A stretch of 32,685 bases of DNA from Porphyra umbilicalis. Its lineage: Eukaryota; Rhodophyta; Bangiophyceae; Bangiales; Bangiaceae. Below the pieces are notes generated by a model. That model searched no databases. It had not been told where the DNA came from and was given only the letters and a program-made list of their open reading frames with translations. Each line of letters begins with the position of its first letter. Positions within the stretch are counted from its first letter, which is position 1. This document shows, piece after piece, positions 1,746 to 32,176 of the stretch. The position numbers were made by a program, and so were the translations under genes. Where the stretch lies: contig KV919279.1 in assembly GCA_002049455.2 (NCBI GenBank), positions 1 through 32,685 on the forward strand. Reading direction: 5' to 3'.

Positions 1746-2625
1746 TTGAACTGTATGCAGAGGGATGCGAACTTATCATCCTGGTTTGTGGAGCACGACG
1801 CGGGCTTTGCAGGTGGAGAGCCGTGCACCGTACGATGGCGGCGGGCTCCCAGCCGCCGGCGATCGGGGCCGCCGGCGGTTGGGACAACCATCCCTCGCGT
1901 GCCGCCGTGGCGGCGCGCGGGGAGGCGCAGCGCGGCGCCACGCGTGCGCCGGTGGGATCTCCCACCGCGCCTTGCCGCCCGGCGTCGGACCGCGTGGGGG
2001 GGAGGGGGGGCGGATCCCTGTCACCGCCGACGCCTGCGCCGCCGCGCCGGCCGGCCGGCGGCGGTGGCGGTGGGGCGCCCGCCCGGCAACGGGTCGGCCG
2101 CCGGCGCCGTCCCCGCGCGCGCGCGCGCGGTGCGGGGTCGAGCCCCGCTCGCTGCGGGGCGCGCGTCGCCGCCGCGCGCACGTCATCAGATGCGCGGTCC
2201 GCAGCGGGCGCCGTTGCCACTGACGACGTGCGTCGCCGTGTGGCCGCCGCCGCCGCGCTTTTCGGGCGCGCCCGCCGCCGCCGCGGTTGAACGCCCGCCC
2301 CGCCGTCTGCCGCCGCAACCAGCCGTCGACGCAACGCCGTCGCTGCCGCTCCGACTGCCGCGGCTGCCGCCCGAGGTTGGCCCACCGATTGTCGGAGGCC
2401 GACGACCCAGAGGCAGGGGCAGAATAGCGGCCACCGCGCTTGGGCGCGCCCGACCCCCGACCCAGCGGCCGCCAACGCAAGGCCACTGCAGGCACTATCA
2501 CTGCCGTTGGCACTGGCACAGCTTTGACCACTGCGGCGGCCACGGTTGTTACGTTGGCCGCTGCCGCTGCCTGCCGACCCTCTCGCCTACCTGCCGCCAG
2601 CCGGGCGACGGTGGCGGCTACGACG
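1746..2625. other. GC-rich upstream region, no gene called
   Basis: This stretch is open in several frames on both strands because stop codons are rare in very GC-rich DNA. One plus-strand frame runs unbroken from here into the FG-GAP gene. However, its translation before about position 2860 is Arg/Pro-rich and shows no domain, so I treat the stretch as upstream or 5' untranslated DNA. The better start for the next gene is the ATG at 2626. Confidence 0.5.
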
Positions 2626-4349
2626 ATGGAGCGCTACCGACGCGCCGCCACCAGCGCCCGCCGCCTGGCGGGCGCCTGCCTGGCGGCCGCCGCGGTGGCG
2701 GCGCCGCTTGCAGCCGGCCAATGGGCGTCACCCGGCAGCGGCGCTCCCCCTCCCCCGCCCCCCGCCAATGCATCGTCTGCCGCCGGCGCACTCCCCCCCC
2801 CGGCGCCGCCCCGGCCCTCCTCCCCACTTCCGTGCGTGCGCGCACGTCCACCGCCGACGCGACGTGGCAGGACTGGACGCCCGCGTCCGGCCTCCCCCGG
2901 GGCAACAAAGTCAAGTACAGCGGCGCCCTCATTGCCGACATGGACGGGGACGGGTGGTACGACCTGGTGCTCAACAACCACGACCAAACGCGGCTGCAGG
3001 TGTATTGGAACAACCGCCGCGGGCGGTTCCTGCGCGGCCAAGACGCGCTGCCGTACCGCATGGACGCGCACGGGATGGCGGCGGGGGACCTCGGCGGCGC
3101 CCCCGGCGCCGACTGGGTCGTCATGCAGGGGGGGAGCAACGGCGCGACGCCGGCGCCGCCGCGGCTGCTCCGCACCCGCGGCCCCGCGCGGCGGCTCGTG
3201 CAGGCGCAGCGCCGCGCGGGCGTGGCGGGGCCCGCGTCGGCCGGCCGCGGCCGCACGCCGCTGCTCGCCGACTTGGACGGGGACGGGGACCTCGACCTCG
3301 TGTTGCTCAATTACGACTTGGCGGCGGGCGACCGGGGGCCCCGCCAAAAGGTGTATGAGAACATTGGGGGGGGCGTCTTTCGGCAGCGCCGCCGGACGGG
3401 CCTGGAGGACCTGACCGTCGAGCGCGCGATCGTCACGGACCTCAATGGCGACGGGCGGTTGGATATTGTCGCCTTCCCCTACCTCCGCCTCCTCCTCGCG
3501 ACGGGCCCGTTTGCGTTTACCGACGTGACGCTGAGGTGGTTGTGGGGCATGCCCAACTGGTCGGCGCTGCGCTACGGCGTCCGCGCGGTGGCCGAAGTCG
3601 ACACGGCCAACGCGGGCGTCGCCGACTTGTACCTGTGCCGCCACCCGCGGCAGGACGTGCTGCTGCGCAACCGGGGCACCCGCTTGGCCGCCTCCCCGGC
3701 GGGGGCCGTGCCGGCGGGCACCGCCTCGGGCGACGTGACGGTTGGCGACTTTAACAATGACGGCCGCCTCGACTTGTTCCTCTCCCACCCGGCGGGCACG
3801 GCCAACGGGCGCCCTGGGTGGCGCCCCGACACGCTCCTCACCGCCATTGGCGACGGCCGCTTCCGCGCCTCCACCTCCCACGGGGCGACGCAGTGGACGG
3901 TGGCGCCGGGGGATTCCGTCCAAGCGTTTGATTACGACCGGGACGGGCGGCTCGACTTGCTCGTCGGCGGCGGCGACGAGGTGACCGCCTGGCGCGGCTT
4001 TTCGGGCGTGCCGGGCCCGTGGTCGCTCTTTACGAGCACCATCCCGAGGGCGGGGGCGGGGGGGGCAACCACTGGGTCATACTCGCCGTCGGCCGCTCGC
4101 CGTCGGGCAAGGGCGCCGCGGGGGGGGCGACGCTCAGCCTCCGCGCGGGGGGGGGGGGCTCAAGCGGATGTTCCTCCACCGCCGCGTGGGGGGGGGGGGG
4201 GGGGGGGGACGACCGACGAGCTCCGCCTCGTGCACTTTGGGTTGGGCGGCCGCGATTACGTCGACCAGGTGCGGGTGCGGTGGAGTAACGGGGAGGTGCG
4301 GTGGCTGTCGCCGCCGCCTGTCGACAAGGTGACGACGGTGACCAAGTAG
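2626..4349 (+). CDS. FG-GAP/VCBS repeat protein with C-terminal ASPIC/UnbV domain (CRTAC1-like), frame-broken
   Basis: Secreted or cell-surface beta-propeller protein of the CRTAC1/ASPIC type; members of this family bind calcium, and the molecular role is unknown. Five D-x-[DN]-x-D-G calcium loops are visible at about 2937 (DMDGDGWYDL), 3272 (DLDGDGDLDL), 3438 (DLNGDGRLDI), 3750 (DFNNDGRLDL) and 3930 (DYDRDGRLDL). They are followed by ASPIC landmarks NHWV (about 4066), VHFGLG (about 4230) and VRWSNGE. The ATG at 2626 was chosen because it opens a signal-peptide-like start: MERYRR, then an Ala/Leu core ending AAG. That start lies in frame 1, while the repeats lie in frame 3; the switch falls at the C9 run at 2793-2801. 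The ASPIC domain is itself split over three frames, at G8 (4058-4065), G12 (4147-4158) and G21 (4188-4208). Each switch is explained by one missing base. No intron is needed. About 574 residues are expected. The family call is firm; the exact start and sequence are less so. Confidence 0.82.
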
Positions 4350-11745: not shown

Positions 11746-14700
11746 GGCGGGTCCCGATCCCCGACTGACGGCATCCCCACAGCGCGTTGATGAAATCTCG
11801 TGTCAGGTTCCAAGGTATCTGCAACAAGGCCGAACCGTATTGCTGCTCGACCCCTTTGCGTTCAGAGAGAGATCGAAAATGAGTACATAACTCCTCTTTG
11901 CCCAATCTTTAAGGAGAAGTTCACATCCTTCGAGACATATGTTGCGAGACTCGCCGCAATGATCCCTCGGAGGTCTCGGGGAAGAAGTGGAGCAAGACCC
12001 TGACGGAGGAAAGGATGTGACACCGGCCAGCATTGAGGATACATGCCAAAGATGCATTGAAAGACACGGTCGCTTTATTGTTGCTCGGCGCGGGCACGGG
12101 TGGCAGAGCAGACACGAAATCGATAAGAAAGCCACGGTGTGCTACAGAGTCACGCAGACATGTAGCTAACTGCACACAGCCGCAAACTCTGACAGAGCTA
12201 CAGGCCACCGGACAACAGCAAGCTCACCATGTCAGCGACTCGCGGACACCACGCATGCATGTGCGTATGACACAAGTTACTCGACTTCGATGTCAGCAAC
12301 ACCCATTGGTTTGCAAAGAAACAGAAGCCAAGAAAGAGGAAGCCATCGCACATATGCATGGTAAGGATACATGGGGGACGGGCGAGCGAACACGAAAAAG
12401 AAGTACGTGGTCAGTTCATCCAACCCATCCACCACCCACCCACCGCGCGCGTCACACTATCCACACTGCGCCAGTGTGGATCCCCACCCAATCGCCACCA
12501 CCACTAGTCCAGCGACTGCAAACGTCGTCCGGCCCGTCGTAGAGTGACTCCCCCCCGCCCCCGTGCGAGCTGGAGAGAATGCGTGGGATGGAGGGGATGC
12601 AGATAAGAATACGACAGGAACGAGGGCGGTCGGCAGGAGGGTGGGCGGGGCGATCGAACAGAGGGTGGCCGGGGCTTCCGGCCAGGAGGGTGGGTGGGGC
12701 GGTCGACCAGAGGGTGGGCGGGGCGGTCCGCCAGGAGGGTGGGCCGAGCGGTCGGCCAGGAGAGCGAGCGGGGATGTTGGCAGCACTTGTGCACTTGGGC
12801 GGCAGCCAGGAGCGGGGCTGGGGGCAGCATGGCAGTCACCTGCACACATGCCGAGGGCGCGCATTGGCGCCGCCCAGCACTTCGAATTATTATTAATCGC
12901 CCCGCTATCCCCAAGCACAAGGCTTGACGTTTTCCAGCCCGCTGGTTGGCTGCCCGGTTGACCGGGGGCGCATCCTGGGTCCCCATTGGTAGCAGACTAT
13001 CATGCCAACAGGTACTGAACAAAGTCTGGCTGACACAAGCTACGACGGTGAGGCGTCCGAGCAGAGGTCTCCATGTGCCCGCAAGAATGCATACTGTGTA
13101 CGCCAAGTCTGCCTTGAACTGGGTGTGAAGGGTGCCGTTTGATCGCGCAAGGAGGACCTGCCCCATGACCCTGCCAGAGCTCTGCACGGCAATGCCAGCA
13201 GCCGTCCCACTCTAGCGACACCGTTTGCGCCCCCATCCTCCCCGACCCCCTCGGCATGTATGTGCAGCCCCCCTCGCCCCCCCCCCCCCTGCCAGCAGGA
13301 GAAAGGAGTGGGAGAGGACAGGAAAGGAGGCAAGCACAAGTGTCCGTGGTTGGGCGGTGCCCGCAGCTATTGGGAGTAGACGAGTACGCACATGGGTAGG
13401 GGTGACCAGGTGGGTGGGGTAAGAAGGTCTCTGGGGGTGTCAGAAAGCCTTCTCAGACAGAGCCTTTTAGAGATCGACACAGCGACATTTGCGAGGATGG
13501 TGTCACGAGGTTTGCTGCATGGAAAAACATTTCTCTCACGACCTCTCACGGTTCGCATATATTTTAAGTTCTCCGTGACCCAATTTGACAACGTGCTGTG
13601 CCCCGTCAGGTGGGGGGGGAGGGGGGGGTGCTGGTCTGCGCACGGGTGGGTGGGAGACCGCCCCTACACCCGCCGCCCGACCACTCGCAGGCCCGCAGCG
13701 GGGAGACGGGCGGGGACCCCCGTAGCACAATGGCGGATCCCGTTGACTGCCCCCCCCGCGACGCGCGTCCGTGCACGCGGTTCAATCTGGGGAGATATTT
13801 TCCAGGGCGACGCGCTCAATCGGCAGCCGCCGTACGGCCGCTCGGGTCGCGGGGGGGAGGGGGGGGGTGGGTGCCTCCCCGCTGCAAGTTGGGCGACAGC
13901 AACGCACGTGGGTGGCCGGAAGCAGCCAGTGTCGTAGCGACGGGGGTCCGTGGCCACCCACTCCCCGACGTGCGGTCGACGCACGAGTGGGAATCGATGC
14001 CGCTGACGTCTGCCACTCCTATGTAGTTTTTTCTGTTGTTCTTTTTTTGCATCACAGACCCCCCGCCCGTGTCGCTCGGCGCGGGACGGCGTGCCGGCAC
14101 GTCTGGTGCGCACTTGCACACGCGGCTGACGGCGCGTCCACCCGAAAAAAATCCGCATTGGCAGGCACCCTTGCGCCAGATCTTTCAGCTGATCTCCATC
14201 TCGGACCCTCCCGCCGCCGTCATGCGTGCGCCCGAGGCGTGACGGCGCGGCGCGCCGTGCGGAACGGTGGGCAGGTCCCGTAGCCATGAGTTGCGGTTCT
14301 CCACCGTACACCACGCCCAGCGTCAAACGTGCTGACTGCCATGGCTGCTCGTACCGATGGCAACGGGGGGGGCCGGCGGGGGGGGCGGGACCGGGGGGCC
14401 GTCGACTATGACGATGGCCCTCGCGTGTGGTGCCTTTCCAAATTCAGATAATCTGCTAGTGTCTGCTCCTCGCGGAACCGAGGGCGCGCGGGACCAGCAC
14501 ACCGGTTCGGTCACGACCCCGCGTGTCCGACCTTCCCCTACCGGTCCCGGCTACTGGCCACCTATCTACCGCAGACCGCCCCGCAGACCGCCCCCAAGAC
14601 GGTGTCCTGCGCCCCTCCGTCCCCGGTGCCTGCCGTCGCCACCGCTGCATCACCCGCCCAATCTCCCGACCGGTGGTGCGTGGGGGTGTTTTGGGGACAG

Positions 14701-14859
14701 CGTACAGACGGTACCCAATACTATCGGCACACTTTTGGCCGAAAATTCTCATTGCACTCCTGGGTCCCGATGTGGCTCAATGACACTGGGCAGGGTCGCG
14801 ATATGAACCCCCCTCTCTCAGTCAGCGTGAGGACAGAAACTCCAACAGTCACCAAGACG
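11746..14859. other. Region of mixed composition without a recognised gene
   Basis: GC content falls from about 11750, and the sequence becomes more evenly composed. Open frames of 60-230 codons occur on both strands (for example 12033-12542 plus, 12504-13187 minus, 13392-13937 plus), but none shows a domain, a signal or the strong G/C third-position bias of the real genes nearby. It contains a minisatellite at 12633-12769. The stretch around 13440-13600 is the most balanced in composition and could be remnant mobile DNA. I see no RNA gene. Confidence 0.45.
12633..12769. repeat. Minisatellite, about 24-bp unit, five to six degenerate copies
   Basis: Units built on CCAGGAGGGTGGG-CGGGGCGGTC repeat with a period of about 23-26 bp. 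Alternate copies begin CCAGGAGGG or CAGAGGG. The G-rich strand has several closely spaced GGG runs and could form quadruplexes. Confidence 0.8.
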
Positions 14860-15497
14860 GGGTCCCCGAGACATCCTCTATCTGCTGGTGAACACATCAC
14901 GGCCGTCACCCTGCTCGAACAAGGCGAGTCGCTCGGCACGATTGGTACACTTTTGGGCCGTAGCCGAAGCACCATCGCCTATGTGGCCGAGATGGTTCGT
15001 CAAGCGGGTGGCGGCCCACGATTCGAAAAGCGTGGTCTTCCCAAGGCTCTGACGGACCGCAAGTTCCGCAGCGTCAAGCGGGTTGTCGGCGCCAGTCGCT
15101 TGATTTCCGTCCTCGCCTTGACGGTAACCATTAACCTCACGCGCGCCCAGGCCGGTGGCGGGCCCAACAACGGTCCTTTGTAAACCTCTACGGTACGGCG
15201 AGCTCTCTGGGCCATGGGGTATGCGCCCAGGGTCCCTGCCAACAAACCCTTCCTGTCGGCTACAACTTGCAGAAGCGCCTCTCTTGGTCTGTTGAGCGGT
15301 AGGGCTGGACTGTTGAGTAAGCCTTGGTCTCCTTGACGAACGAGAGCTCCTTCCTTGTGCGCTCAACTCCGGCGGGCGCGTGTGGCGCGGGCGAACGCTT
15401 CGTGCCAGCACCAAGTACTGATCACACCTCGGTGTCAAAATCGAGCGTTTCGTCTGATCACAATAGTTCGTCAAAATTGAGTTTTCTGGTGTTCGGA
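14860..15497 (+). pseudogene. Decayed Tc1/mariner-type transposase
   Basis: A broken transposase of the Tc1/mariner superfamily. The N-terminal helix-turn-helix region is intact in one frame (about 14874-15090: PLSAGEHITAVTLLEQGES, then LGRSRSTIAYV, then KRGLPKALTDRKFRSVKR). An in-frame TAA at 15181 follows. The same frame then resumes with STVRRALWAMGYAPRVP and NKPFLSA (15187-15258), a typical Tc1 block. A frame change gives NLQKRLSWSVER, a TAG at 15300, and WTVE followed by another stop. The first catalytic block reads TNES at about 15336, where the family has TDES, so the first catalytic Asp is Asn. A further frame change gives VWRGRTLRAST (15380-15412), and LVFG near 15486 resembles the next conserved block. 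The second and third catalytic acidic residues are missing. It cannot make an active transposase, and terminal repeats were not identified. Confidence 0.75.
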
Positions 15498-17495
15498 TAA
15501 TAATGGGTACCAACTGTACAGTCGCGGGGGACGTTCCGCTCGACGCCGGGGGGCCGGCTGCCCCCCCAGGGGCGGGGGGGCGGACGCGGTCTCGGCAGCG
15601 GCGGCGTGGGCCCAGGCGGCGGCCGTGGCGTTTTGCAGCCGCACGATGCGTGCGCAGCGGTCAAAGGAGATATGCCGCGTACGGGGGAGCGAGGTACTAT
15701 GGCACTTCAGGGGGTGGGGGGGGGAGGCAGGAGGTGCGTATACCGTCAACGACTCACCGCTAGTGCCACGTCGGACGAATGACGAGCCGTGGCACGCATG
15801 GGCAACGCCGCAATGGTTCCAATTGACGCGCGCGCGGGGGGGTTTCCTGCGCCACGACCGCCGGGTGGGGAGGGGGGGGGGGGTGCGACGCGCACGACAC
15901 CCGGTTCGCCGTGGTGGGGCCGCAGCCATCCGCGGCGGCTGGGGCGGGGGCGCCAGCAGTGCCACCCACCGTGCCGCCCCTCCCCCCCGCGAGTGAGACC
16001 ATGCCGCGGACGCGGTTGCTGTCCGGGCCACGCGGGGCGCGGGGGTGGGGGGTGGGATCCAGCGGACCTCGCGCCCCCGTGCCGGATGACCCGCGGGCCG
16101 CGCCCGCCGCCGGCGCGCCCGCGGGGGCGCCACGGGGCGGCGGCCGCGCTCGTCGCGGGGGCTTGCCCTGCGGCACGTCGGCACCGCGGCAGCAAGACGC
16201 CCGCCATAGAAGCGTGGATGTCCACTTTGGCGACCACTCTATGGCGGCCGCGGTTAGAAGCTGCTCAGCCGGCACAAGGGACAGCCACGGTCGCGGACAC
16301 CGGCGCGACTCCAAAGACGAGCCCGTGCGCCATCCGCTTCCAGCGAGACCCTGATGGCACAGGCATAAACACAAGGCACCATCAAGTGATACAAAAAACA
16401 CAGTGGGGGCTATAGGGCGCCGCCTTCACGCCCATTTAGGTAGCTGGTGGCGTCTGAACTGGACCACCCCTTTCGAACGGGGTGCTGGCTTGGTAGTTTG
16501 TGCTGCAGCCGCCTTCCAAAATTGCTACGGGCGTCCTCTATCGAAGAAAAAAATCAGGTCTTGTGCTAGAGTCTTCGTCGCGGCGGATACCCCAGAACCT
16601 GCCGCGACCGCCACCCGCGCGCCGCTTTTTCCAGTCCCGACATCCACTGCTACTCACGGCGCCGCTCTCACCTCTGCAGCTGTGGCGACCGTCGCTCGCT
16701 CCGCCACCGCTTTTTGTCCAGCAACGCTGAGACCCGTGTTTTCGCGTCTCGCGTGAGCCCGGTGTCGCAGCGGTGCTGAAGCCGAGCACAGCCGCACAGA
16801 GAAGAACACAACGTGACGAACCTTCGCCTTTGTTTAAATTTTTTCTACATGGCAATTAGTATAATTCAGTGATAGTTCAGTTCAGGCATAGCGAACTAAT
16901 ATGAATATATGTCGTGACTTGTTTCGTACTTGTCATTGAGTACAAGGCTCCAGCGCTTGACGGCGTTTTATTTCGGCAACTGCTCTCGCCCACTCTTCCT
17001 CCTCCCCGAACCCACTGCTGTGCATGCATCGGGTTTATTCCTCCCCCTGGCAGCTGCTGATCCCTCTGGCGTGCCATCTACCCCCTCCCCCACCCCCCCA
17101 CCAGCGTCATGCAGGGCGGCCGTCCCAGTGGCTGATGACGTGGCAGTCGGGGTGAGCACGGCGGCTCGGGCGTGTTTTGTCCCGGTGAACCCTGTCGCGT
17201 GGTGCCGACGCGTTGTGGTTGTGGTTGGCCCCTGCTCGCGTCTCTTGTCTCTGTGGAACTGGCGCACATTCACGTGACCATCTTCTTCGTCAACCTCGAC
17301 GGTGGAGGGATCCGTGACGACCTGCACTCGCTGCATTCGTCGTTGTTGCTGAGTCGCCACGGGACCACCGCCGACCTCCTGCGCAAGACCAGCCGGACGG
17401 GCATTACTGCTGACAGCCCGGTTGCTTCTGCTCCGCTGCTTACCGCATAGTTTGCTGATGCTGTGTGTGCGAACCCAACTGGTTCTGACGTGACG
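15498..17495. other. Intergenic region upstream of the C2 gene
   Basis: No domain was seen in any frame. 15530-16260 is GC-rich with open frames on both strands. 16400-16800 contains a 117-codon plus frame (16403-16756) without recognisable features. 16830-16940 is AT-rich and likely non-coding. 17000-17495 probably includes the promoter and 5' leader of the C2 gene; an in-frame TAG at 17448 separates that leader from the coding start. Confidence 0.45.
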
Positions 17496-18893
17496 ATGAC
17501 GATCCCCTCCCCTCCGTCCTCCCCCCTATCCCGCTCGCACCTCTCCGCGGACACATGTGGCGGCCCGGGGGCCGGTCGTCAGGCTTCCTCGTCTGGCCCC
17601 TATACCTGCTTCACCGACGATGAGGGTGAAGGGGAAGACGTGGCTAGCAACGGGAATACCGCTGCTCCTCCCTCGTCGGTTGCGTCGTCAGTGAGCGACG
17701 CGTCGGACGCGCCGTCGCCGTCCACCGGCACGCCTTCGTCGACGCACACCATCACCTTCCCCACGTCAGCATTAGTCGCCGCCCGCGCCGCGCATACCCT
17801 CCCCGTCCTCGGGGAGGAGCGGTCGTGGGTGCCCCTCGCCGGCACGGGGGAGCTGGTCGGCGCCGAACTCGAAGCCGCGCTCCGCCACGTGGCTGTTGAA
17901 CTGTCTTTAACCGCTCGGAAGCTCCCCCGCGCGGAGCTCCTGTCCAAAGTCGACGCCTTTGCCGTCGTTTTTGTGGGCGGCGTCGTGGAGGGGGCGTGGG
18001 ACGAGCTCGGGCGGACGGAAACGATTCGGGATTGCCACGAGCCGCGGTGGGTCGCCAAGTTTCGACTGCCGGGCGCGACCGCCCTCGACCGGGAGGCGCC
18101 GCTGCGGATTGCGGTCTATGCGCAAACGGTAACGGCCGAGGTGGGGGAGCCAGGGGCGGACGGCGAGCCGCCGGCGCTCACGTCCGCGCCCGACCTGGCC
18201 GTCCATACGCTGCTTGGGGGGGTGGAGCTGACGCTCGCCACTGTCCTCCAAGCCCCAGGCCTGTGCTATGACACCCCGCTGCGGCTGCCCGCCGTGCGGG
18301 GGCTTCTCGGCTTGGTCACCGCCACGGGCCCCCCGTCGTGGGGGTGGGGCGCCGGCGCCGGCGCCACGAGTCCCACGGGCGTCGACGGCAGCGCCGGGGG
18401 CGGCAGCGTCGGTGGGCGCCTGCGGGGCGCCCTAACCATCGACGCGGACCTCATCCGCCACGTCCACCCACCGTCGTCGGTGACCATTGGGTTTGGCATT
18501 GACGGCGGCGAGGCGCTCGCGCGCAACCGCTCCCAGTTTGTGCTCTGCCGTGCCCTGCGGCGGGGGCGATGGGCGGCGGTGTACCGCTCCGAGCCACGGG
18601 TGCGCGCCGAGGCGGGCGCTTTCATTCCGGCGGTGCTCCCGACCGACGTGCTTTGTGGCGGGGAGGCCGGCCGCCTGCTCCGCCTCGAGGTGTACCGCTA
18701 CTATCTGAACGGGGAGACGGCGTTGCTCGGGTTTGTGCAGGTCAGTATGGAGAAGCTGAGGAGCATGCGGGAGGGGGGGGAGCTGTACTGGTGGCCGGCC
18801 GTGGGAGGCATCACCCGCGCCAAGGTGCGGATGGAGCGGGTGCAGGTGGGGGAGGCGGAGAGCCAGTTTGGGATGCGTTTGACGGACATGTGA
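17496..18893 (+). CDS. Tandem C2-domain protein, copine-like, lacking the vWA/copine domain
   Basis: Predicted cytosolic protein of 465 residues that probably docks on phospholipid membranes, possibly with calcium. After a Ser/Pro/Thr-rich, acidic low-complexity N-terminus (about residues 1-120), a first C2 domain spans about 130-255. It carries VELSLTARKLPRAELLSKVDAF and GRTETIRDCHEPRWVAKF (residue 134 onward), very close in pattern to copine C2A. A second C2 domain (about 308-440) has FVLCRALRRGRWAAVYRSEP, then LLRLEVYRYYLNGE and LLGFVQVSMEKLRSM, matching copine C2B. Copines normally continue into a von Willebrand A-like domain of about 250 residues; here the protein ends soon after C2B with FGMRLTDM. 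The first ATG after the in-frame TAG at 17448 was taken as start. It is a single exon with strong G/C third-position bias from about 17700. AT-rich DNA follows within about 120 bp of the stop. Confidence 0.78.
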   Translation: MTIPSPPSSPLSRSHLSADTCGGPGAGRQASSSGPYTCFTDDEGEGEDVASNGNTAAPPSSVASSVSDASDAPSPSTGTPSSTHTITFPTSALVAARAAHTLPVLGEERSWVPLAGTGELVGAELEAALRHVAVELSLTARKLPRAELLSKVDAFAVVFVGGVVEGAWDELGRTETIRDCHEPRWVAKFRLPGATALDREAPLRIAVYAQTVTAEVGEPGADGEPPALTSAPDLAVHTLLGGVELTLATVLQAPGLCYDTPLRLPAVRGLLGLVTATGPPSWGWGAGAGATSPTGVDGSAGGGSVGGRLRGALTIDADLIRHVHPPSSVTIGFGIDGGEALARNRSQFVLCRALRRGRWAAVYRSEPRVRAEAGAFIPAVLPTDVLCGGEAGRLLRLEVYRYYLNGETALLGFVQVSMEKLRSMREGGELYWWPAVGGITRAKVRMERVQVGEAESQFGMRLTDM

Positions 18894-19702: not shown

Positions 19703-20008
19703 TCACTCGGACACGACCTTGCCGAGCAGGTCCTCATCCCGGAACAGCCACATCTCCTTGCCCTCCACCTCCAGGGTCGACCCCCCGTACTCTGGCAGCA
19801 CAACCGTGTCACCGGCCGACACGGACGGGGGGATCACCTCTCCGTCCTTGCCGCGCGCACCGGGGCCGACGGCCAGAACTTTGCCCTCGTTGAGCTTGGA
19901 CACCACCGACTCGGGGAGGAGGATACCGCCCGCCGACGTCTTCTTGGGCGCGACCTTTTCAATGAGCACCCGGTCCAGCAGGGGGACGATGCGGCGTGCC
20001 AGAGCCAT
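19703..20008 (-). CDS. Chaperonin 10 (Cpn10/HSP10, GroES family), mitochondrial type
   Basis: Co-chaperonin that caps the Cpn60 folding cage, acting in the mitochondrial matrix as a seven-subunit ring. The 101 residues cover the whole family domain: RRIVPLLDRVLIEKV, the mobile loop KKTSAGGILLPES, KLNEGKVLAVGPGAR, IPPSVSAGDTVVLPEYGG, then EMWLFRDEDLLGKV near the end. Length matches the usual 95-105. The pattern (LLDRVLIEKVAP and LPEYGGS) is that of mitochondrial rather than double-domain plastid Cpn20 proteins. The ATG at 20008 starts MALARRIVPLLDRV, a normal beginning. A pyrimidine-rich stretch ending CAG (20021-20023) sits just upstream, so an intron probably lies before it and an upstream exon may add 18 residues. 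The 3' neighbour is the C2 gene, converging; upstream on the same strand is the acyl-CoA synthetase. Confidence 0.96.
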   Translation of the reverse strand: MALARRIVPLLDRVLIEKVAPKKTSAGGILLPESVVSKLNEGKVLAVGPGARGKDGEVIPPSVSAGDTVVLPEYGGSTLEVEGKEMWLFRDEDLLGKVVSE

Positions 20009-20965: not shown

Positions 20966-22972
20966 TCACTTCATGGACGTATACAGCGCCTCCAGAGTGG
21001 CCTTGTACTTCTTGGACAGCTGCGGCCGCTTGTACTTGAAGGTCGGCGTCAGGAGGTCGTTCTCCACCGTGAATCCCTGCCCCAAGTCGTTCACCTCCGT
21101 CTCAAAGAGCAGGTCCTTGATCTCCTCGTAGCGCTTGAGCTTGGCCTCAGCGGTCATGACCTTGAGCTCTGCCAGCACCGCCGCCTTGAAGGCCGGCACA
21201 GCCGCGATGGCGGCCAGGCCGCCCGCTGCCTTGTCGGGCGCGTTCTTGGCCGCCCACGCCTTGGCGGTGATCGGGTCGGGGACGACCACCGCAAGCAGGG
21301 TAGCCTCAAAGGAAGAGCCATACACCCAGATTTGGGAGACCAGCTTGCACTTGGCGTACTCCTGCTCAAGCGCCTCAGGGGACACGTACTCACCCTGGGC
21401 GAGCTTGAACAGGTTCTTCTTGCGGTCAATGATCTGCAGCGACCCATCTGCGTTCCAGCGACCAATGTCGCCCGTTGCAAAGAAGCCGTCCGCGTCAATG
21501 GCCGCCTTGGTCGCCTCCTCATTGCGGTAGTAGGCGCGGGTGACAAACGGACCACGCACGCAAATCTCGCCGCGCGGGCACGGCTTGTCGGCGGCCGTGT
21601 ACTCCATGTCGGGCACGTCGACAAGCTTGACCTCCGCCCCCGGCAGGGGCCCCCCGCAGGTGCCCGACGGAAAGTTGGGCGCCGTGCAGCACATGCCGCC
21701 GACCGTCTCGGTCAAACCGTAGCCCTGCAGCACCGGGCACTGTAGGCACACGCTGAGGAAGTCGTTGGTCTGCGCCGACATGGGCGCCGACCCGGTGATG
21801 ACCAGCCGGCAGTTGGGAAGCAGCTTGGCGCGCACCTTGTTGAAGATGAGGCCGTCCCACAGCCCACTCCGCGGCGTCCCGTTCTGCACCGACGACAACA
21901 CGGAGCCGTACGCGATCTCAAACAGCTTGCGCTTGAGCCACCCCCCCGACTCGACGGTCTCCATGATGCGCTGCTGGAAGCGCGCGAACACCCGCGGCAC
22001 GCCTGCAAAGATCGTCGGCTTGCAGACCTCCAGGTCGGCGAGCAGCAGCTTGACGTCGCCTTGGTAGTAGGCCACCGAGCCACCAGCGCAAAAGACGAGC
22101 GCCTCGCCTTGCTGCGCGAAGATGTGGGCCAGGGGGAGGAAGCTCAGCAGCGAATCGGACGAGCTGAACTCAATGCCAAAGTGGCCGAAGAAGCGCAGGG
22201 CGCTGGCGACAGACGAGATAAAGGCGCGGTTCTGAAGCGTTACGCCCTTTGGGTCCCCAGTGGTGCCGCTGGTGTACATGATGACAAAGAGGTCTTCCCA
22301 GCCCGACGGGGAGGCCGTGGCGTCCTCAGAACCCTGGAGGTGCAGCGCCTCCATGGTCACGACGTCACCCGCCACAACAGACGGCAGCTGGGCCGTCGAC
22401 GCGGCAGCGGGGATGTCCCCCGTCTCCATGACAACCACCTTGGTCACGGTCGGGCACTTGGGCCGGGCGGCCAAAAAGTTGTCGAGGTTGGCCACCGTCG
22501 TAAAGACGAACTTCACCTCAGCGTGGTTGATCACGTACTCGACGGCGTTGGGCCCCAGCGAGTCGTACAGGGGCACCAGCACCAGACCCTGGGAGGAGCA
22601 CGCCATCTGCGCCATGCTCCAGTTGGGGCAGTTTTTCCCGTACACGCCCACCCGGTCGCCCTTGACCAGGCCGGAGGCGACGAGCGCCGAGCCGAGGCGC
22701 AGCGCCGTCTGATGCACCTTGTTGTAGGTGTGGAACGTGTACGGCCCAGCCTCGCCCGCCGCGTTGATCGGCCGCCAGCCCAGGCACTTGGCGGTGGGCT
22801 GCTTCTTGGCAAACCGGGCGACAAAGTCAAAGGTGGTGCGGATCGTCTCCCCTGGGAAGGGCTGCTCATCCGACGGCAGGTAGCCACAAGTGCGGACGGC
22901 GCTCTCGCCGGGCCGCATCGGCTCTGCTGCCGGCGTAGACAGCTGCAGCTTGGCCCGCAGTGGGGACGCCAT
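20966..22972 (-). CDS. Long-chain acyl-CoA synthetase (AMP-forming, LACS/FACL)
   Basis: Activates free fatty acids to acyl-CoA with ATP through an acyl-adenylate; feeds lipid synthesis or beta-oxidation. 668 residues, the usual length for eukaryotic LACS. Seen in order: the ATP-binding loop YTSGTTGDPKG (from residue 233), FLPLAHIFAQ, the GVPRVFARFQQRI segment, ITGSAPMS, the adenylate motif YGLTET, and the fatty-acyl signature region FFATGDIGRW (Asp about 502) followed by IIDRKKNLFKLAQGEYVSPE. The LAQGEYVSPE form is typical of eukaryotic long-chain enzymes. The ATG at 22972 (MASPLRAKLQL) was preferred to upstream non-ATG extensions to 23017. No cleavable signal is evident, and the C-terminus (YTSMK) is not a peroxisomal PTS1. 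The whole reading frame is a single exon without homopolymer damage. The downstream neighbour on the same strand is Cpn10; there is no evidence for co-regulation. Confidence 0.96.
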   Translation of the reverse strand: MASPLRAKLQLSTPAAEPMRPGESAVRTCGYLPSDEQPFPGETIRTTFDFVARFAKKQPTAKCLGWRPINAAGEAGPYTFHTYNKVHQTALRLGSALVASGLVKGDRVGVYGKNCPNWSMAQMACSSQGLVLVPLYDSLGPNAVEYVINHAEVKFVFTTVANLDNFLAARPKCPTVTKVVVMETGDIPAAASTAQLPSVVAGDVVTMEALHLQGSEDATASPSGWEDLFVIMYTSGTTGDPKGVTLQNRAFISSVASALRFFGHFGIEFSSSDSLLSFLPLAHIFAQQGEALVFCAGGSVAYYQGDVKLLLADLEVCKPTIFAGVPRVFARFQQRIMETVESGGWLKRKLFEIAYGSVLSSVQNGTPRSGLWDGLIFNKVRAKLLPNCRLVITGSAPMSAQTNDFLSVCLQCPVLQGYGLTETVGGMCCTAPNFPSGTCGGPLPGAEVKLVDVPDMEYTAADKPCPRGEICVRGPFVTRAYYRNEEATKAAIDADGFFATGDIGRWNADGSLQIIDRKKNLFKLAQGEYVSPEALEQEYAKCKLVSQIWVYGSSFEATLLAVVVPDPITAKAWAAKNAPDKAAGGLAAIAAVPAFKAAVLAELKVMTAEAKLKRYEEIKDLLFETEVNDLGQGFTVENDLLTPTFKYKRPQLSKKYKATLEALYTSMK

Positions 22973-24019: not shown

Positions 24020-24080
24020 CGCCATAATCCGAACCGCTGGGCTTGCTCTAAGAGCAAGCCCAGCGGTTCGGATTATGGCG
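24020..24080. repeat. Perfect 30-bp inverted repeat around a single base
   Basis: The arm 24020-24048/9 (CGCCATAATCCGAACC..., ending GGGCTTGCTCT) is followed by one A (24050) and its exact reverse complement at 24051-24080. Directly after it, GCGGAGA-A-TCTCCGC (24078-24092) is a second palindrome. The centre contains TAA between two opposed copies of the element terminus GAGCAAGCCCAGCGGT, as if two related elements met at one target site. Confidence 0.95.
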
Positions 24081-24955
24081 GAGAATCTCCGCTAACGCCA
24101 AATTATAGCGGAAAGGGATGCCCAGCGGTCAGATTTATGGCGCGGAATCCACGCCAAATGTTGGGATGGCGGAGATCCGACGCTATATTCCGGTGGTATG
24201 GCGTGAGATCTACGCCATCCCAACGTTTGGCGGAGCCATATGGCGGAAACATGCCGCTGCGAATCGAAAGGTCATCTCGAATGTGAGGACAGGTGACACT
24301 TCGACGTGGCCATGTGGTTTCTTTCAATCGCCTGACCAAAGACCACAAGACACGTCCAGCTGCAACGTCTCTTTCGAAGCCAGCGACCATACATTCCCTC
24401 CTCCTGGAAGCACTGTGCAACAGGGAGGATTCAAATGCTGTCGTCTTTTGGCCAGTCACCGCCACTGTGCTCAACATAAACAGAGAAGCGATCTAATACG
24501 TCTGTTTCTTCGTCGACATCTTCAGTTTGTTTCAGCTGGCCGAGGGTCGGGGGGGGGGGTGGCGCTGAACCCATGCATTCTTCCTGGCGAGCGTGATGGC
24601 CGAGTCCCCCAAAATACGCCCTTCAACTCATGTGGGGGGGGTGCAGGGCGGGGGGGCAATATGCGAATAGAGAGGGGAGGGAGTACATATCTTTGCACTT
24701 CCGCAGCGGGCGCTCCGCCAGCAGAAAACGCATGGTTTGCAGCTGGGATGGTGCAGGCGGGGCTCCTCCTCCACTTCCTGGCGCGGTCCCGAAGAATTCG
24801 GATTTTCCGCTATACTCTGGCGCCCAAACCGCTGGAAGACATCGACCATCGGCCGCTCCATATTAATAATGTGGAGGGGCCACTCACAATGCGCCACGAA
24901 TCGAGTCGAAAACGCTATACTATGGCGTTGGCGGGCACCGCTGGGCTTGCTCTAA
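24049..24955. mobile_element. Non-autonomous DNA transposon, 901 bp, with terminal inverted repeats and TAA target duplications
   Basis: The left end GAGCAAGCCCAGCGGT (24052-24067) is the exact inverse of the right end ACCGCTGGGCTTGCTC (24937-24952). TAA flanks both ends (24049-24051 and 24953-24955), a 3-bp target duplication. Just inside both ends lie matching subterminal words AACGCCA and ATAGCG in the same order. A further inverted pair, with two mismatches over 24 bases, lies at 24154-24177 and 24207-24230. No transposase domain is found inside; the open frame 24118-25029 has none. A 3-bp T-A-rich duplication is typical of the PIF/Harbinger superfamily, so a MITE-like derivative of that group is the best inference. 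Confidence 0.72.
24154..24230. repeat. Internal hairpin of the transposon
   Basis: CCAAATGTTGGGATGGCGGA... at 24154-24177 pairs with ...TACGCCATCCCAACGTTTGG at 24207-24230 with two mismatches over 24 bases, leaving a 29-base loop. It lies inside the TAA-flanked element near its left end. Confidence 0.85.
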
Positions 24956-25798: not shown

Positions 25799-28700
25799 AT
25801 GCCGTCGTCAACACCCACGGCATCTCCCGACATCCCGTCCAGGAGGGTGCCTATGTACTGTCTATTTGTCGCTTCCTCTGCACCACGGCGGCAGGCGGCG
25901 CGTCCCATCACTGCAATCACCGCCGCCGTTGGTGCGTGCCGGTGCGTGCCAGACGCCTGCGGCGGCGCGGCGGCGCCGGCGCTGGCCGTGCGGCTCTCCT
26001 TCTCCTCCTCCTTGCGGACAAGGTTAGGCGCCACTGGCGGCGCTTCCCGGTGCCTCTCGTTTTTCCAGAGCCCCGGCGTCGCCCGCCCATGCGGTGACGT
26101 GGAGGCGCCGGCCGCTGCGGCGGAGCGGGCCGGCTGCCGCTTCCATGGCGGCGTCTTTATGGGGGCGGTCCCCCTGCGCGGCGTGGTTGCCGAGGGCGTC
26201 GCCGACGGCGCCGCTCCGCCCTACGTCCCCCTCCACGTACATTCCGACTACTCCCTCCTCGACGGCGCCAGCCGCCTGACCGACCTCGTCGCCCGCGCCG
26301 CCGAACTCCACACCCCCGCCCTCGCGCTGACCGACCACGGCGTCCTCTACGGCGCCATTGAGCTCGTGCGCACCTGCACGGCGGCGGGCGTGAAGCCCAT
26401 CGTCGGGAATGAGATGTATATTGTCAACGCGCCGCTCGGCGACGATGCGGTTGGAAAGAAGCGCTTCCACCTGACGGTGCTCGCCAAAAATACGGCGGGC
26501 TACCGTTCCCTCGTCGCCCTAACGACCAAGTCGCACCTGGAGGGGTGGCCCAAGCGTGGCGGCATGTTCTCCCGCCCGGCCATCAACAAGGAGTTGCTGG
26601 CGGAGCACGCAGACGGCCTCATCATTGCGTCGGGGTGTCTCAGCGGAGAGATTCCGCGTGCCATCCTCAGCAATGACTTTGATGAGGCGCGGCGGGTGGC
26701 GACGTGGTACCGCGATACTTTTGGCGACGATTTTTACTTGGAGCTCCAGGACCACGGCCTGCCGATGGACAATATTGTCAATGCCGGCGTCGCCGCACTT
26801 GCCAAGGAGATGAACCTCCCGCTCATTGCCACCAACGACTCGCATTTTACGTCAGCGGCCGACGCGGAAGCGCACGACGCGCTCATTTGCATGCGGACTG
26901 GCAAAAAGCTCGTCGACAAGGGGCGCCTCGTCTACACTGGCCACGAGTACTTCAAGTCGACGCCGCAGCTGCTCGACGCGCTCGCGCGAACGGTGGAGCC
27001 AGACGTGGCGGCCGAGGCGCTGCGCAACACCGTGGCCATTGCCGACAAGGTGTCGCCGTACGACATCCTTGGCGAGACGCGCATCCCCGACTTTCCCATC
27101 CCAGACGCGTTTGCGCCGGGCGGCGACGCCGCCGCGCGCTCCCACACCGCCTACCTCCGCCACGTGGCGCTGGAGGGGCTCGCCGCCCGCGTCAAACGGA
27201 GTAACATTTCGGAGCAGCGGCTGCGCGACGAGTACATGCCACGGCTGACGTACGAGCTTGACATGCTCGAGCGGATGGGGTTCCCCTCCTACTTTCTGGT
27301 CGTTTGGGATTTTATCCGCTTTGCGCGGGAGGAGGGCATCCCGGTCGGCCCGGGTCGCGGCTCGGCCGCCGGCTCGCTGGTTGCGTACGTCCTAAACATC
27401 ACCACCGTCGACCCGCTGGTGCACGGCCTCCTCTTTGAGCGCTTCCTCAACCCCGAGCGCGCGTCCATGCCCGATATCGACACGGACTTTTCGGTGGAGG
27501 GCCGCGACAAAGTCATCCAGTACGTGACGCGCAAGTACGGGGACGACCGCGTCGCGCAGATTATCACGTTTGCGCGGATGACATCCAAGGCGCTGCTCAA
27601 GGACGTTGCTCGCGTGCACAATGTCAAGTACGCCGAAGCGGACCGCCTCGCCAAACTCATCCCGGTCGTCCGCGGGAAGCCCGCCACCCTCAAGCAGCTG
27701 CTCTCCAAGGACACCCCGTCGGCCGAATTCAAAGCCGCGTACACGTCTGGCACCTACAACGTGTGGGTGCCGAACGAGGAGGTGGCGCCGCCGGCGCTCA
27801 CCGAAGGGGAAGACGGGGAGCTGGTCGAGTCGCACGCGGACGAGCAGCCGCCGCCGCCAGTGGCGGCGGCGTCCCCCAAGCGCCGGCGGAATGCCAAGGT
27901 CGCCACGTCGGGCGTGGAGGGCGACGGCGGGACCTGGGAGAAGCGCGACTTTCGGGACCTCATTGACAAGGCCAAGCGGATTGAGGGCACCAAAAAGTCG
28001 TATGGTGTGCACGCCGCCGGGGTCGTCATCTCCTCCCGCCCGCTAGCCGAGATTGTGCCCCTATCGCGGGGCAAGAATGGGGAGACCATCACTCAGTACG
28101 CGATGGAGGATGTGGAGGCGCTGGGGCTTCTCAAGATGGACTTTCTCGGCCTCAAGACGTTGTCGATTATCGACGATGCCGTCAAGCTCATCAACGCGCG
28201 GCGTGTGGAGGTCGGCCTACCTGCCGACGTTGACGTGTCGGTTGACGCGCTGCCAACAGACGACAAGGAGACGTACGACTTGCTTGCGAGTGGCAAACTG
28301 TACGGCGTCTTTCAGTTGGACGCGTCGGCTGGCATGCGCGCCATCGTGCGGCAGCTACGGCCGTCGTCACTCGCTGACATATCCTCCATTCTCGCCTTGT
28401 ACCGGCCCGGCCCGCTTGACGCCGGCCTCATCCCAAAGTTTATCGCGCGGAAGCATGGGCGGGAAGCCATTGACGTTGCACACCCGCTGCTCAAGCCCAT
28501 CCTCGAAGAAACATACGGCATCCTCGTCTACCAAGAGCAGATTATGCGGGTCGCGCGGGAGCTCGCGGGCTACTCTCTGGGCGAAGCTGACATCCTCCGC
28601 CGCGCCATGGGCAAGAAGAAGGTTGACGTTATGGAGCGGGAGCAGGGTCGCTTTGTTGCCGGCTGCGTCGACAATGGGGTGTCCAAGCCGGTGGCGGAAG

Positions 28701-30478
28701 CGCTCTTCGCGCAGATGCTGCTGTTTGCCGAGTACTGTTTCAACAAGTCGCACTCGAGCTGCTACGCCTACCTGACGTACCAGACAGCGTGGCTCAAGGC
28801 CAACCACCCAGTCGAGTTCTTCACCTCCCTGCTCCGCGCCAACGTGACCGCGTCGGACAAGCTGGGCCGGTACGTCGTCGATGCGGACGCAGCGCGGGTA
28901 CGGGTGCGGCCGCCCGACATTAATCGGAGTGAGCTCGGCTTCACCCCCGACTATGACGACGACGGTGCTGACGTGGGCGACGGCGCGCACTTGCACGCGG
29001 GGACGCACGCCAAGCGGTACCGCGGCGCCATCCTCTTTGGCCTCGAAGCGGTCAAGACGGTCGGCGCCACGTCGGCTCTCCCGCTCATCGAGGAGCGGCA
29101 GCGGGGTGGCCCTTTCCGGTCCATCGCAGACATGCTCGAGCGCCTCCCGAGTTCGGTCATCAACAAGCGCTCCCTCGAGGCCCTCGTTTCGTGTGGCGCC
29201 TTTGACCGCCTCCACCCCAACCGGCGGGCGCTCCTCGAGGCGCTGCCCGAGATGCTCGTCCTCCGGAAGCGGTCGACGGAACGCCAACGGCGGCTCGACA
29301 AGCGCGCGGTGACGGCGGCGGACAAGGCAGCGGCGGCAGCGGGCCTCCCGACTCCCGCCGACGCCGACGCCGTCGTGGCGGCTCGTGCGGAGCTGGTGGC
29401 GGCGACAAAGTGGGTCAAAGAAACGGAAAAGGAGCGGGAGGCGTGGGCCGAGTTGGAGCTGAGCATCTCAGCCGCCGCGCGGGACGTTGATGAGTTTCCG
29501 CTGCAAACGCGCCTGCAGATGGAGAAGGAGATGCTGGGCTTTTACGCGACCGCCCACCCACTGAGCAACTTGGGCGCGGTCGCCGCGCTCGTTTGCCCGA
29601 CGCCACTTGTCGACATTGTCGGGTCGGACGAGGCGGCCGAGGACGCCGGCTTGGAGACGGGGACGGACCTGTCCGGCCCAGACGGGGACGGCGCGGGGGC
29701 GCCATCAGTGCACGTCGTCGTGCAGGGGAGCCGCGCCTCTGGCGGCGATGCGGTCGGCGACGCGGCGCCGCCCCGGTCGTCCGACCTCCCCCCCTCTGCC
29801 ACTCACTCGGCGCCCGTCGTCAAGGAGGGCGCCGAGGTGGTTACGCTTGGCCTCATCACCGGCCTCAAGATGCTCAAGACCTCTGCCCGCAAGCAGACGA
29901 TGGCCACGTGGACGCTGGAAGACGAGTCGGCCTCTCTTGCCGCCGTCGCCTTCCCGTCGACGATGCCGGTCGTGCAGCCCGCCCTTGCCGACGAGGCACG
30001 GGTGCTCTGCTGGGGCAAAGTGCAGCGTGATTCGGGTGGCTACACGCAGCTGATCGTCAATGACGTGCAGCGCGTGCGGGCGGCGCAGGTGCTACTGCTC
30101 ACACGCACGGGCGACGCGCCGCACGTGGGCGTCGGCACCCTCCGCGCGCAGGCAAACATTGTTCTCCGCCGCGCGACGGGCGCGGACGACACGGCCATGG
30201 ACGAGGGCGATGGTGGCGGTTACTCGCGGCGGACGTGGCGCAAAAAGGTGGACATGGCGACGCTCCCCCGCATCGCCATCGTCCTCGACGTTGGGCCCGA
30301 TGGTGGGGGGACGGACGGCCCGCGGCAACGCGCCTACCTTGGCAACAACTGCCGCGTTCACGAGTCCCACGTCGACCGCGTCATCCGCGCGGCGGCGACG
30401 ATTGGGTGTACCGCGCAGCTGTTGCGGATTGGGGACACGTTTGGCGTCGACGCCGACGCGGATGAGGTGGCAGCCGAG

Positions 30479-30510
<32 letters not shown>

Positions 30511-32176
30511 GGCGGTGGCGCCACCGCCGGCGCCCGAAGCGGCCGATGGCTCCCTGCCGACCGCCGACGGTGGGGGTGGTGGTGGCGGCGACGGCGGCGG
30601 CGGCAGCGGCAGCGGCGGCGGCGGCGTGCCGGCGGCGACGCCGCCGCCGTCGTCTACGCGGGGGCCCGGGTCGTCGTCGGCCGCGCTGCAGCGGCTGCCC
30701 CCCCCCGCGTCGACCCGCGCGGCGGCGGTGCAGCGGCCGGCCGCCCCCGCCGCGTCGTCAATGGCGACTGCCGAGGCGGTCACGCTGGCGCCGGCGGTGC
30801 CCGCCGCCGCCGCCGCCCCCGCCGACCCGCCCATGGACGCGTCGGCGGCCGACCCGGCGTTGCGCTTCCCCGCCAATGATACGGTTGTCGGCGCGCCGGC
30901 GCCGACGCCAGCGGCGGCTGCTGCCGCCGCTGCCGCCGCCGCCGCTGGGAGCGACGACCTCGACGTGCGGGCGGCGACCACCGACCCCGTGGCGGCCGCG
31001 CCGGGTGCCGACATGGCCCTCGCCCCCCACGACGTGTGCGCCGGCGGCGGCGGTGACGGTGGGGACGGCGACGGGGGCGGCGTGCCGGCCCCCGCGCCGG
31101 CGACCGGCGTCACGCCCGCCGTGGATGCGCACGCGTACCGGGCGGTGCCCGCGGCCGTAAACTTTTGGGGGGCGCCGCCGACGCGGGCGGCGGCACCGGC
31201 CCCCGCCGTTGCCCCCGCCGCCGGTGCGGCGGCGCCTCCCCCCGCGGTCGCGCCCGCCGCCGCGGCGGCGGCTCCTCCCCCCCTGCGGTCGCGCCGTCTG
31301 CCGTGGCGGCGGCCGCCGCCGCCGCACCGGCGGTGGCGACACCCGTGGCGCCGGCGGCGGCGCCCCGCCGTGGCGCCCTGCCCCGCATCCAGCGGCCGGC
31401 CGCGGGCGCGGCGGCGGCCGGTGGGGTGGCGCCGCCGGCACGGGCGGCGGCGCCACTGCCGCCGACCGCACCCGCGGCGGCGACGGCGGCAGCGGCGCCC
31501 CGTGGCGCGCTGCCCCGCATCAAGCCAGCCTCTGTGGCTGCAGCGCCCTCGCCGCCACTGGCGGTCGCCACCCCCTCCCCCCCCCCACCCCCCCCGTCGT
31601 GTCGGCAGCGGCAGCGGCAGCGGCGGCGCCGCCGCCCGTGGCGCCGCCGCCCATCCCCCCCGCGACCCCACCGACCGTGGCGCCCGCCGTCCCCCCCCCT
31701 CCCCCCCCCCCCCTTTGGCCCGTCGCCCACCCTCGACGCCTTCCTCGCTGCGGCGTCGTCTGGGGTCCCCCCCCCCGCCCCCCCCCCCCCCCCCCGTCAG
31801 CGACGCGGCGCCCGACCGCGGGGCCCTTGCCGCCGCCGAACTCCTCGCCATCGCCGCCGCGCAGGAGCGGGCCGCCTACGCGACGCACGTGGCGCGCCTC
31901 TCCCAGACGCCCGCCGAGCGCGAGGCGGCGGAAGCGGCCGCGGCGACGGCCGAGGCGGCCGGCAGCGGCGACGGCGACGACACCGCGTGGCCGTTTCGGC
32001 GCGGCGTCGAGGAGCTGCTCGAGGCGGAGCGGCAGAGGCTGTTGGCCGAGGCGGCCGCCGCCGAGGCGGCCGTGGCGGGCACGGAGGACGATGTGGCGGC
32101 GCTGTTGGGGCGCTTGGCCGAGGGCCGCGCCGCGCGGGGCGGGCCCAAGCCGTACCGCCTCGACCTGCCGCGCTAG
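25799..32176 (+). CDS. dnaE: DNA polymerase III alpha subunit (C-family replicase), cyanobacterial-like, with long N- and C-terminal extensions
   Basis: Template-directed replicative DNA polymerase of bacterial family C. From ATG 25799 (in-frame TGA at 25763), about 145 residues rich in Ala/Arg/Ser precede the PHP domain, as expected for an organelle presequence; ATGs at 25853 and 26159 are alternative starts. The PHP domain starts LHVHSDYSLLDG and keeps H146, H148, D150 or D155, H180 (LTDHG), E205 (GNEMY), H224, C280, D347 and H349. Polymerase catalytic residues are present: D561 and D563 in MPDIDTDFS, and D781 in MDFLGLKTL. FAEYCFNKSHS (C980) marks the site of the cyanobacterial split intein; none is here. 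Helix-hairpin-helix (about 1115-1150) and OB-fold (about 1347-1425) follow. A 55-residue insertion (about 657-712) carries PKRRRNAK. After about residue 1558 comes a 550-residue Ala/Pro/Gly-rich tail, ending in an acidic helical segment (about 2003-2125). Family length is about 1160. Residues about 1827-1999 as literally translated are doubtful because of poly-C frame slips. Confidence 0.95.

Follow-up and report, generated by a model that had tools for sequence, protein, structure and literature searches.

The dnaE gene and its product

The window analysed here, 32,685 nucleotides of DNA from the red alga Porphyra umbilicalis, makes up all of C519, one of the 665 contigs of an assembly that totals 83.8 Mb. 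It holds a gene for DnaE, a C-family DNA polymerase, whose product keeps the conserved active-site residues, belongs by descent to the cyanobacterial line, has lost its internal clamp motif and stands in a eukaryotic context (Table 1). The original prediction, made from the letters of the window, had proposed a full DnaE with PHP, polymerase and OB regions and catalytic aspartates, and this is borne out. The DnaE1-type domain order (PHP, palm/thumb, fingers, HhH, OB) is complete in Pfam and PDB matches, the closest PDB match is the DnaE 2hpi (E 1.4e-232), and a Pfam search of the assembly matched dnaE as a single gene in two pieces.

Table 1. Positions of the dnaE gene, its parts and the neighbouring genes in the window.
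Feature	Position	Strand	Basis
dnaE open reading frame (2125 codons/aa)	25799..32176	+	ATG start, 0 internal stops
N-terminal extension, residues 1-139, candidate organelle presequence	25799..26215	+	composition
PHP domain, residues 145-319, candidate proofreading exonuclease	26231..26755	+	Pfam PF02811 E 2e-46; alignment
Polymerase palm/thumb with catalytic D-x-D, residues 452-644 (best DNA_pol3_alpha stretch)	27152..27730	+	Pfam PF07733 E 1e-89
In-frame insert of ~65 residues (651-716), predicted disordered	27749..27946	+	BLAST gaps; pLDDT
Palm/fingers to residue 960, third catalytic aspartate	27938..28678	+	PF07733 second stretch 27938-28150; DNA_pol3_finger PF17657 787-960 E 6e-57
FAEYCFNKSH, residues 976-985, uninterrupted	28724..28753	+	site comparison across relatives' frames
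HhH domain (HHH_6), residues 1034-1145	28898..29233	+	Pfam PF14579 E 3e-24
Segment of bacterial beta-clamp motif QxxLF, motif absent	29252..29590	+	alignment; model
OB fold and C-terminal domain to natural DnaE end (~residue 1545)	29867..30433	+	Pfam PF01336 OB 1357-1424 E 3e-6; alignment
Putative low-complexity Ala/Pro/Gly/Arg-rich tail, ~580 codons	30434..32173	+	composition, frame
LACS-type AMP-binding enzyme (668 aa, one open frame; LACS is an assigned name)	20966..22972	-	Pfam PF00501 E 1e-83
Cpn10	19703..20008	-	Pfam PF00166 E 3e-27
C2-domain protein	17463..18893	+	Pfam PF00168 E 4e-7

Alignment with the Escherichia coli DnaE shows that all three catalytic aspartates are kept (the equivalents of D401/D403 and D555) and that the polymerase positions checked are the same in both proteins (8/8); the catalytic positions follow the E. 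coli numbering. In the PHP domain, the invariant columns of our alignment (A1) include H7, H9, D16, D40, H41, E66, H85, C141, D208 and H210. The His, Glu and Cys positions among the PHP residues are kept in the window DnaE, and several differ in the E. coli row. As these positions, which we take to be metal ligands, are retained, a built-in 3'-5' exonuclease for proofreading is likely. More broadly, the window DnaE keeps 257 of the 301 columns (85%) that are invariant in 22 relatives: 65/77 in PHP, 69/75 and 97/107 in the two polymerase stretches (166/182), 20/25 in HhH, 0/2 in the clamp motif and 6/15 in the last stretch, where three of the 15 columns lie beyond the end of the piece.

The putatively tau-binding C-terminal domain can be aligned with bacterial C-terminal domains to about residue 1545. 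At the other end, the N-terminal extension measures ~139-144 residues, close to the 145 originally predicted. Its residues 1-95 contain 2 acidic, 10 basic and 19 Ser/Thr residues, compared with 185 acidic among the 1402 residues of positions 144-1545. This make-up is that of an organelle presequence, and the extension is a candidate for directing import. Three features came to light that had not been predicted: the missing clamp-binding motif, the ~65-residue insert and the ~580-codon tail. The insert appears in several BLAST alignments as a gap between query residues 511 and 578-580, and the predicted local distance difference test (pLDDT) score falls below 50 at model residues 521-571. The tail DNA has a guanine plus cytosine (GC) content of 77-85%, and as long open frames are frequent by chance at such a GC content, translation of the tail is uncertain.

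The sequence FAEYCFNKSH lies at what we take to be the cyanobacterial split-intein insertion site. Among 86 frames examined, the site was found in 50, and 49 of these carry its Cys. The plastid dnaB gene of this alga, on contig C665 (L097:2399-4192, minus strand), carries an intein (PF14890), and the intein site of the nuclear dnaE is uninterrupted.

Three other polymerase identities were rejected. PolC has much weaker matches (E 1e-22 to 1e-31 versus 1e-232), and the window protein has a single PHP stretch with no embedded 3'-5' exonuclease family. DnaE2/ImuC was set aside by identity: of the 2051 plasmid records 40 were listed, and those among them with an 'error-prone' annotation are 28-33% identical, cyanobacterial DnaE 54-62%; the trees described below hold no DnaE2 rows. 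The organelle polymerase POP belongs to family A, whose domain (PF00476) is not in the DnaE, and family-A genes lie elsewhere in the assembly (C46 and C199).

Genomic setting and descent

The placement of dnaE in a eukaryotic nuclear contig, as first proposed, agrees with its codon usage. Its core shares the GC-rich third positions of its neighbours (0.84, compared with 0.88 in the LACS-type gene, 0.84 in the C2 gene and 0.86 in Cpn10), again as predicted. Synonymous codon use correlates with that of the three pooled neighbours at r 0.94 for the core and 0.89 for the tail; in a control with the longest plus-strand frames of 80 relative loci, the highest r was 0.88, with a median of 0.30. Within roughly 100 bases of the dnaE stop, the downstream DNA contains a T-rich stretch; a T-rich 3' flank had been predicted for dnaE and its neighbours alike, and it stands for dnaE, the only flank examined.

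To place the protein, we used the best 80 of at least 588 confirmed stretches from a genome-contig search. Cyanobacterial titles are borne by 75 of these 80 (the others are L045, L058, L059, L074 and L083), and L045 and L059, titled as other bacteria, group with Melainabacteria in the trees. In a separate draw from the cyanobacterial phylum, 191 of 194 genomes matched; among the matches listed, the first 88 are 54-60% identical over residues 3 to 510-522 and the remaining ones 44-50%. The highest identity to a cyanobacterial DnaE is 62% (755 columns of the N-terminal two thirds). All trees cover these N-terminal two thirds. The first comprises 51 of 81 rows; the second, with 89 rows (87 of them different), adds 49 new loci to 40 of the 81 and omits L083; the third has 45 of the 89. 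In all three, the window DnaE stands beside the Synechococcus/Prochlorococcus clade (Shimodaira-Hasegawa-like approximate likelihood ratio test (SH-aLRT) 84-91), and in the 51- and 89-row trees it falls within the oxygenic group on starred branches. In every tree the window row has an odd composition and a long branch (1.6 in the 89-row tree).

Individual columns point the same way. At 17 diagnostic columns, shared by at least 95% of 82 oxygenic rows and by none of nine outgroup rows, the window DnaE has the cyanobacterial residue 12 times, the outgroup residue three times and another residue twice. In controls with columns of the same type, outgroup rows scored 0-5 of 15-19 and three cyanobacterial rows scored 13, 14 and 17 of 17. 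At 11 columns that outgroups conserve and cyanobacteria have changed, the window DnaE carries a cyanobacterial residue eight times, the outgroup residue twice and another residue once. Kinship with non-photosynthetic relatives was rejected by approximately unbiased (AU) tests, both when the window was joined to three Melainabacteria-type rows (p 0.0011) and to L149 (p 0.0013). By these trees and columns DnaE descends from the oxygenic-cyanobacterial line. A phage or plasmid origin was also rejected: 1367 phage records matched, of which the 15 listed show 34-42% identity, and among the 2051 plasmid records one is at 60-80% identity and the rest are below 60%.

The proposal that the gene is endosymbiont-derived held as far as this descent. 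Its origin may be inheritance from the plastid ancestor or a later cyanobacterial transfer, as the AU tests are compatible with either. A position as sister to all oxygenic rows is compatible (p 0.32), and pairing with L022, or with L133 and L145, is not rejected by AU. We regard it as quite possible that the Bangiales lineage acquired the gene horizontally from a cyanobacterium, although we lean slightly against this. The placement beside Synechococcus/Prochlorococcus in the best trees favours such a transfer, as do three nestings in modern cyanobacterial groups, none of which is rejected (AU p 0.24-0.53), and the available table entries for Cyanidioschyzon merolae and Porphyridium, which name no Pol III. 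However, a stem position above L022, just outside the crown cyanobacteria, exceeds the free tree by 3.8 log-likelihood units (p 0.60), and no near donor is seen, the top 88 of the listed matches being all about equally distant. A transfer would be compatible with the function proposed below.

Clamp motif and replisome partners

The internal beta-clamp motif begins with Q in 19 of 19 other DnaEs, in the form Q..(L/M/F)(F/L) (QADMF in E. coli), and has A at this position in the window DnaE. The surrounding segment is longer by some 35-45 residues, for which the model shows two long helices (model residues 1003-1041 and 1050-1090; pLDDT of the block 46-85). No good candidate for the motif was found elsewhere in the protein, where the strict pattern Q..[LIM]F occurs only at residue 972, in the polymerase core.

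Of the partners that had been suggested for DnaE, plastid DnaB is present, and neither DnaN nor a DnaX above the cut-off was recovered. A six-frame search of the assembly with PF02767 did not find DnaN, although a split or diverged gene could escape it; among 14 control genomes the same model was positive in ten, every one of them bacterial. DnaX gave two matches only (94 and 85 bits, below the curated cut-off of 250), both of which we read as eukaryotic RFC subunits. DnaG primase was likewise not found in the assembly with two Pfam models, with the same caveat for split or diverged genes, which leaves the alga without an assigned plastid primase. A nuclear DnaG is reported in C. merolae and Porphyridium in the part of the literature available to us. 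The lost motif and the failure to find DnaN fit together, and would describe a C-family polymerase freed from the clamp.

The family-A polymerases of the genome include a POP-like gene on C199, with 3'-5' exonuclease and family-A polymerase domains. On C46 (L098:315-4400, plus strand), a very long frame rich in alanine and glycine holds a Pol I gene. Its domains are a 5'-3' exonuclease and a family-A polymerase, and no 3'-5' exonuclease family was matched in it. A TWINKLE-like gene (Toprim and DnaB_C) is also present. Contig C665 measures 185 kb, and two pieces of it that were read have a GC content of 31-34%. Pfam identifies rbcL and the intein-containing dnaB on this contig, and we read further frames as rbcS, cbbX, clpC and rpl9; by this gene content C665 is a plastid genome of the red lineage. 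In a comparison of its RbcL with PDB Rubiscos, the first eleven score ~840-1000 bits and all others 673 or less; the top-scoring ones are presumably red-type.

By descent and predicted fold, then, the protein is a DnaE without the internal clamp link typical of bacterial replicases. What is new, as far as the alignments tell, is that the polymerase and PHP residues are kept while the beta-clamp motif is gone. Cyanobacterial DnaE1 (the Pol III alpha subunit) has the same domain order, active sites, PHP residues and FAEYCFNKSH, at up to 62% identity, whereas the window DnaE is nuclear-encoded, bears a putative presequence, an insert and a tail, and has lost the internal clamp motif in a genome where DnaN was not found.

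Other photosynthetic organelles offer partial parallels. POP shares the proposed compartment and task, and differs from DnaE in polymerase family. According to the accessible parts of PMC3914683 and PMC8227023, POP took the place of Pol III as plastid replicase, and PMC8227023 tabulates PolIII versus POP among the features that set chloroplasts apart from cyanobacteria. The organelle polymerases named in the accessible parts of PMC4166229 and PMC6523293 are family A only. The plastid dnaX of the cryptophytes Rhodomonas salina and Teleaulax amphioxeia is another case of a subunit of bacterial Pol III within a plastid system of the red lineage, but it encodes tau/gamma rather than a polymerase and lies in plastid DNA; in the available parts of PMC4457928 and PMC2412073 it is traced to a firmicute by lateral transfer, and PMC3667073, as far as available, also records it. 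The Paulinella chromatophore, likewise a photosynthetic organelle, has a cyanobacterial Pol III alpha, but there Pol III is organelle-encoded, with beta, delta, delta' and gamma/tau (available part of PMC9450145). Among the titles and abstract openings listed, none describes a nuclear-encoded algal DnaE; subscription journals are poorly covered there, and protein records may hold the gene unremarked. The term 'DNA polymerase' is absent from the main text of the Pyropia genome paper (PMC7423979), and in PMC6963530 and PMC6366073 DnaE is mentioned only within a cited reference and as part of the name of a kit.

Proposed function and neighbouring features

We consider it somewhat more probable than its opposite that this nuclear red-algal DnaE of cyanobacterial descent is a plastid-imported, self-proofreading, clamp-free polymerase, whose import, expression and function we infer. 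The protein would be made in the cytosol and imported into the plastid via its N-terminal presequence, where it would copy or repair plastid DNA beside the plastid-encoded DnaB helicase and the family-A POP. A single chain would polymerise and, via the intact PHP site, proofread. It would do so independently of a beta clamp, gripping DNA through the OB and HhH domains or through the new charged helices and the tail. Plastid replication is the most attractive function for such an enzyme. A bolder proposal is that Bangiales never lost the ancestral replicase of the plastid, and that DnaE, having moved to the nucleus and become clamp-independent, continues to replicate the plastid DNA together with plastid-encoded DnaB, as a C-family replicase that polymerises and proofreads in one chain; we hold this to be possible but rather doubtful. 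If a red alga has a nuclear DnaE of cyanobacterial type, the replacement of the bacterial replicase at the origin of chloroplasts would not have been complete, and a natural C-family polymerase whose clamp partner was not found would make the necessity of the clamp testable in one protein.

Several observations weigh against a plastid-imported, clamp-free polymerase. The presequence could equally be mitochondrial, and codon use in the N-terminal extension follows the neighbours less closely (139 codons, r 0.74). Behind the OB fold, at residue 1430, QVLLL loosely resembles the clamp motif; we do not regard it as one, but a degenerate clamp contact is possible. No bacterial replisome is seen around DnaE, neither DnaG nor a DnaX above the cut-off having been found, and as POP-like and Pol I genes are present, DnaE need not be a replicase. 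Finally, in a leave-one-out control, 22 bacterial rows each kept 96.5-100% of the invariant columns. The window DnaE falls below every bacterial row: selection on it has relaxed or shifted.

These points bear on three further explanations. The same gene may encode a plastid or dual-targeted repair or gap-filling polymerase, with POP copying the plastid genome, which we judge unlikely, though a live competitor. The POP-like and Pol I genes agree with it, short-patch synthesis would suit a polymerase with neither motif nor detected DnaN, and replication is ascribed to POP in the available parts of the two papers cited above. However, the nearest relatives are of the cyanobacterial DnaE1 type, the listed 'error-prone' plasmid rows are far more distant, and the intact PHP site suggests that accuracy was kept. 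That dnaE is a decaying relic under weak constraint rather than a working enzyme seems improbable: the long branch, the lost clamp motif, the low-complexity tail and the reduced share of invariant columns would suit decay, but the frame is open and the checked polymerase residues and most invariant polymerase columns are retained. Contamination, or a chimera joining bacterial DNA to an algal contig, was rejected as very improbable, for although the frame ends only 509 bases from the contig end, the core shares its neighbours' codon usage, the insert and tail are eukaryote-like, even the closest bacterial relative is only 62% identical, and the bacterial replication genes DnaN and DnaG were not found in the assembly.

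The remaining features of the contig agree in part with what had been predicted. The Cpn10 and LACS-type neighbours were recovered by their Pfam families, and of a neighbour called copine-like nothing beyond the C2 domain is supported. GC content in 1-kb steps ranges from 56 to 86% in the window and from 68 to 78% in five other nuclear pieces. Bangiales genomes are given as 64-68% GC, compared with 37-57% in other red algae, in the available part of PMC7423979. Taken with the red-lineage plastid genome, the GC content points to a Bangiales seaweed as the source. Scans of the window with Rfam and for tRNAs returned no matches. Between 5000 and 12000, at 75-86% GC, the sequence is of low complexity with long open frames on both strands, which are likely chance frames. 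At the far contig end, a plus-strand frame (1746-4349) contains FG-GAP repeats and a UnbV_ASPIC domain. As for the DNA transposons of the original prediction, what was seen consists of a plus-strand helix-turn-helix frame (HTH_38; 14452-15183), possibly a transposase remnant, and inverted repeats upstream of dnaE (24020-24232; 30 nt at 100% and 36 nt at 86%), possibly like a miniature inverted-repeat transposable element, with GGGCGTC-rich tandem repeats nearby.

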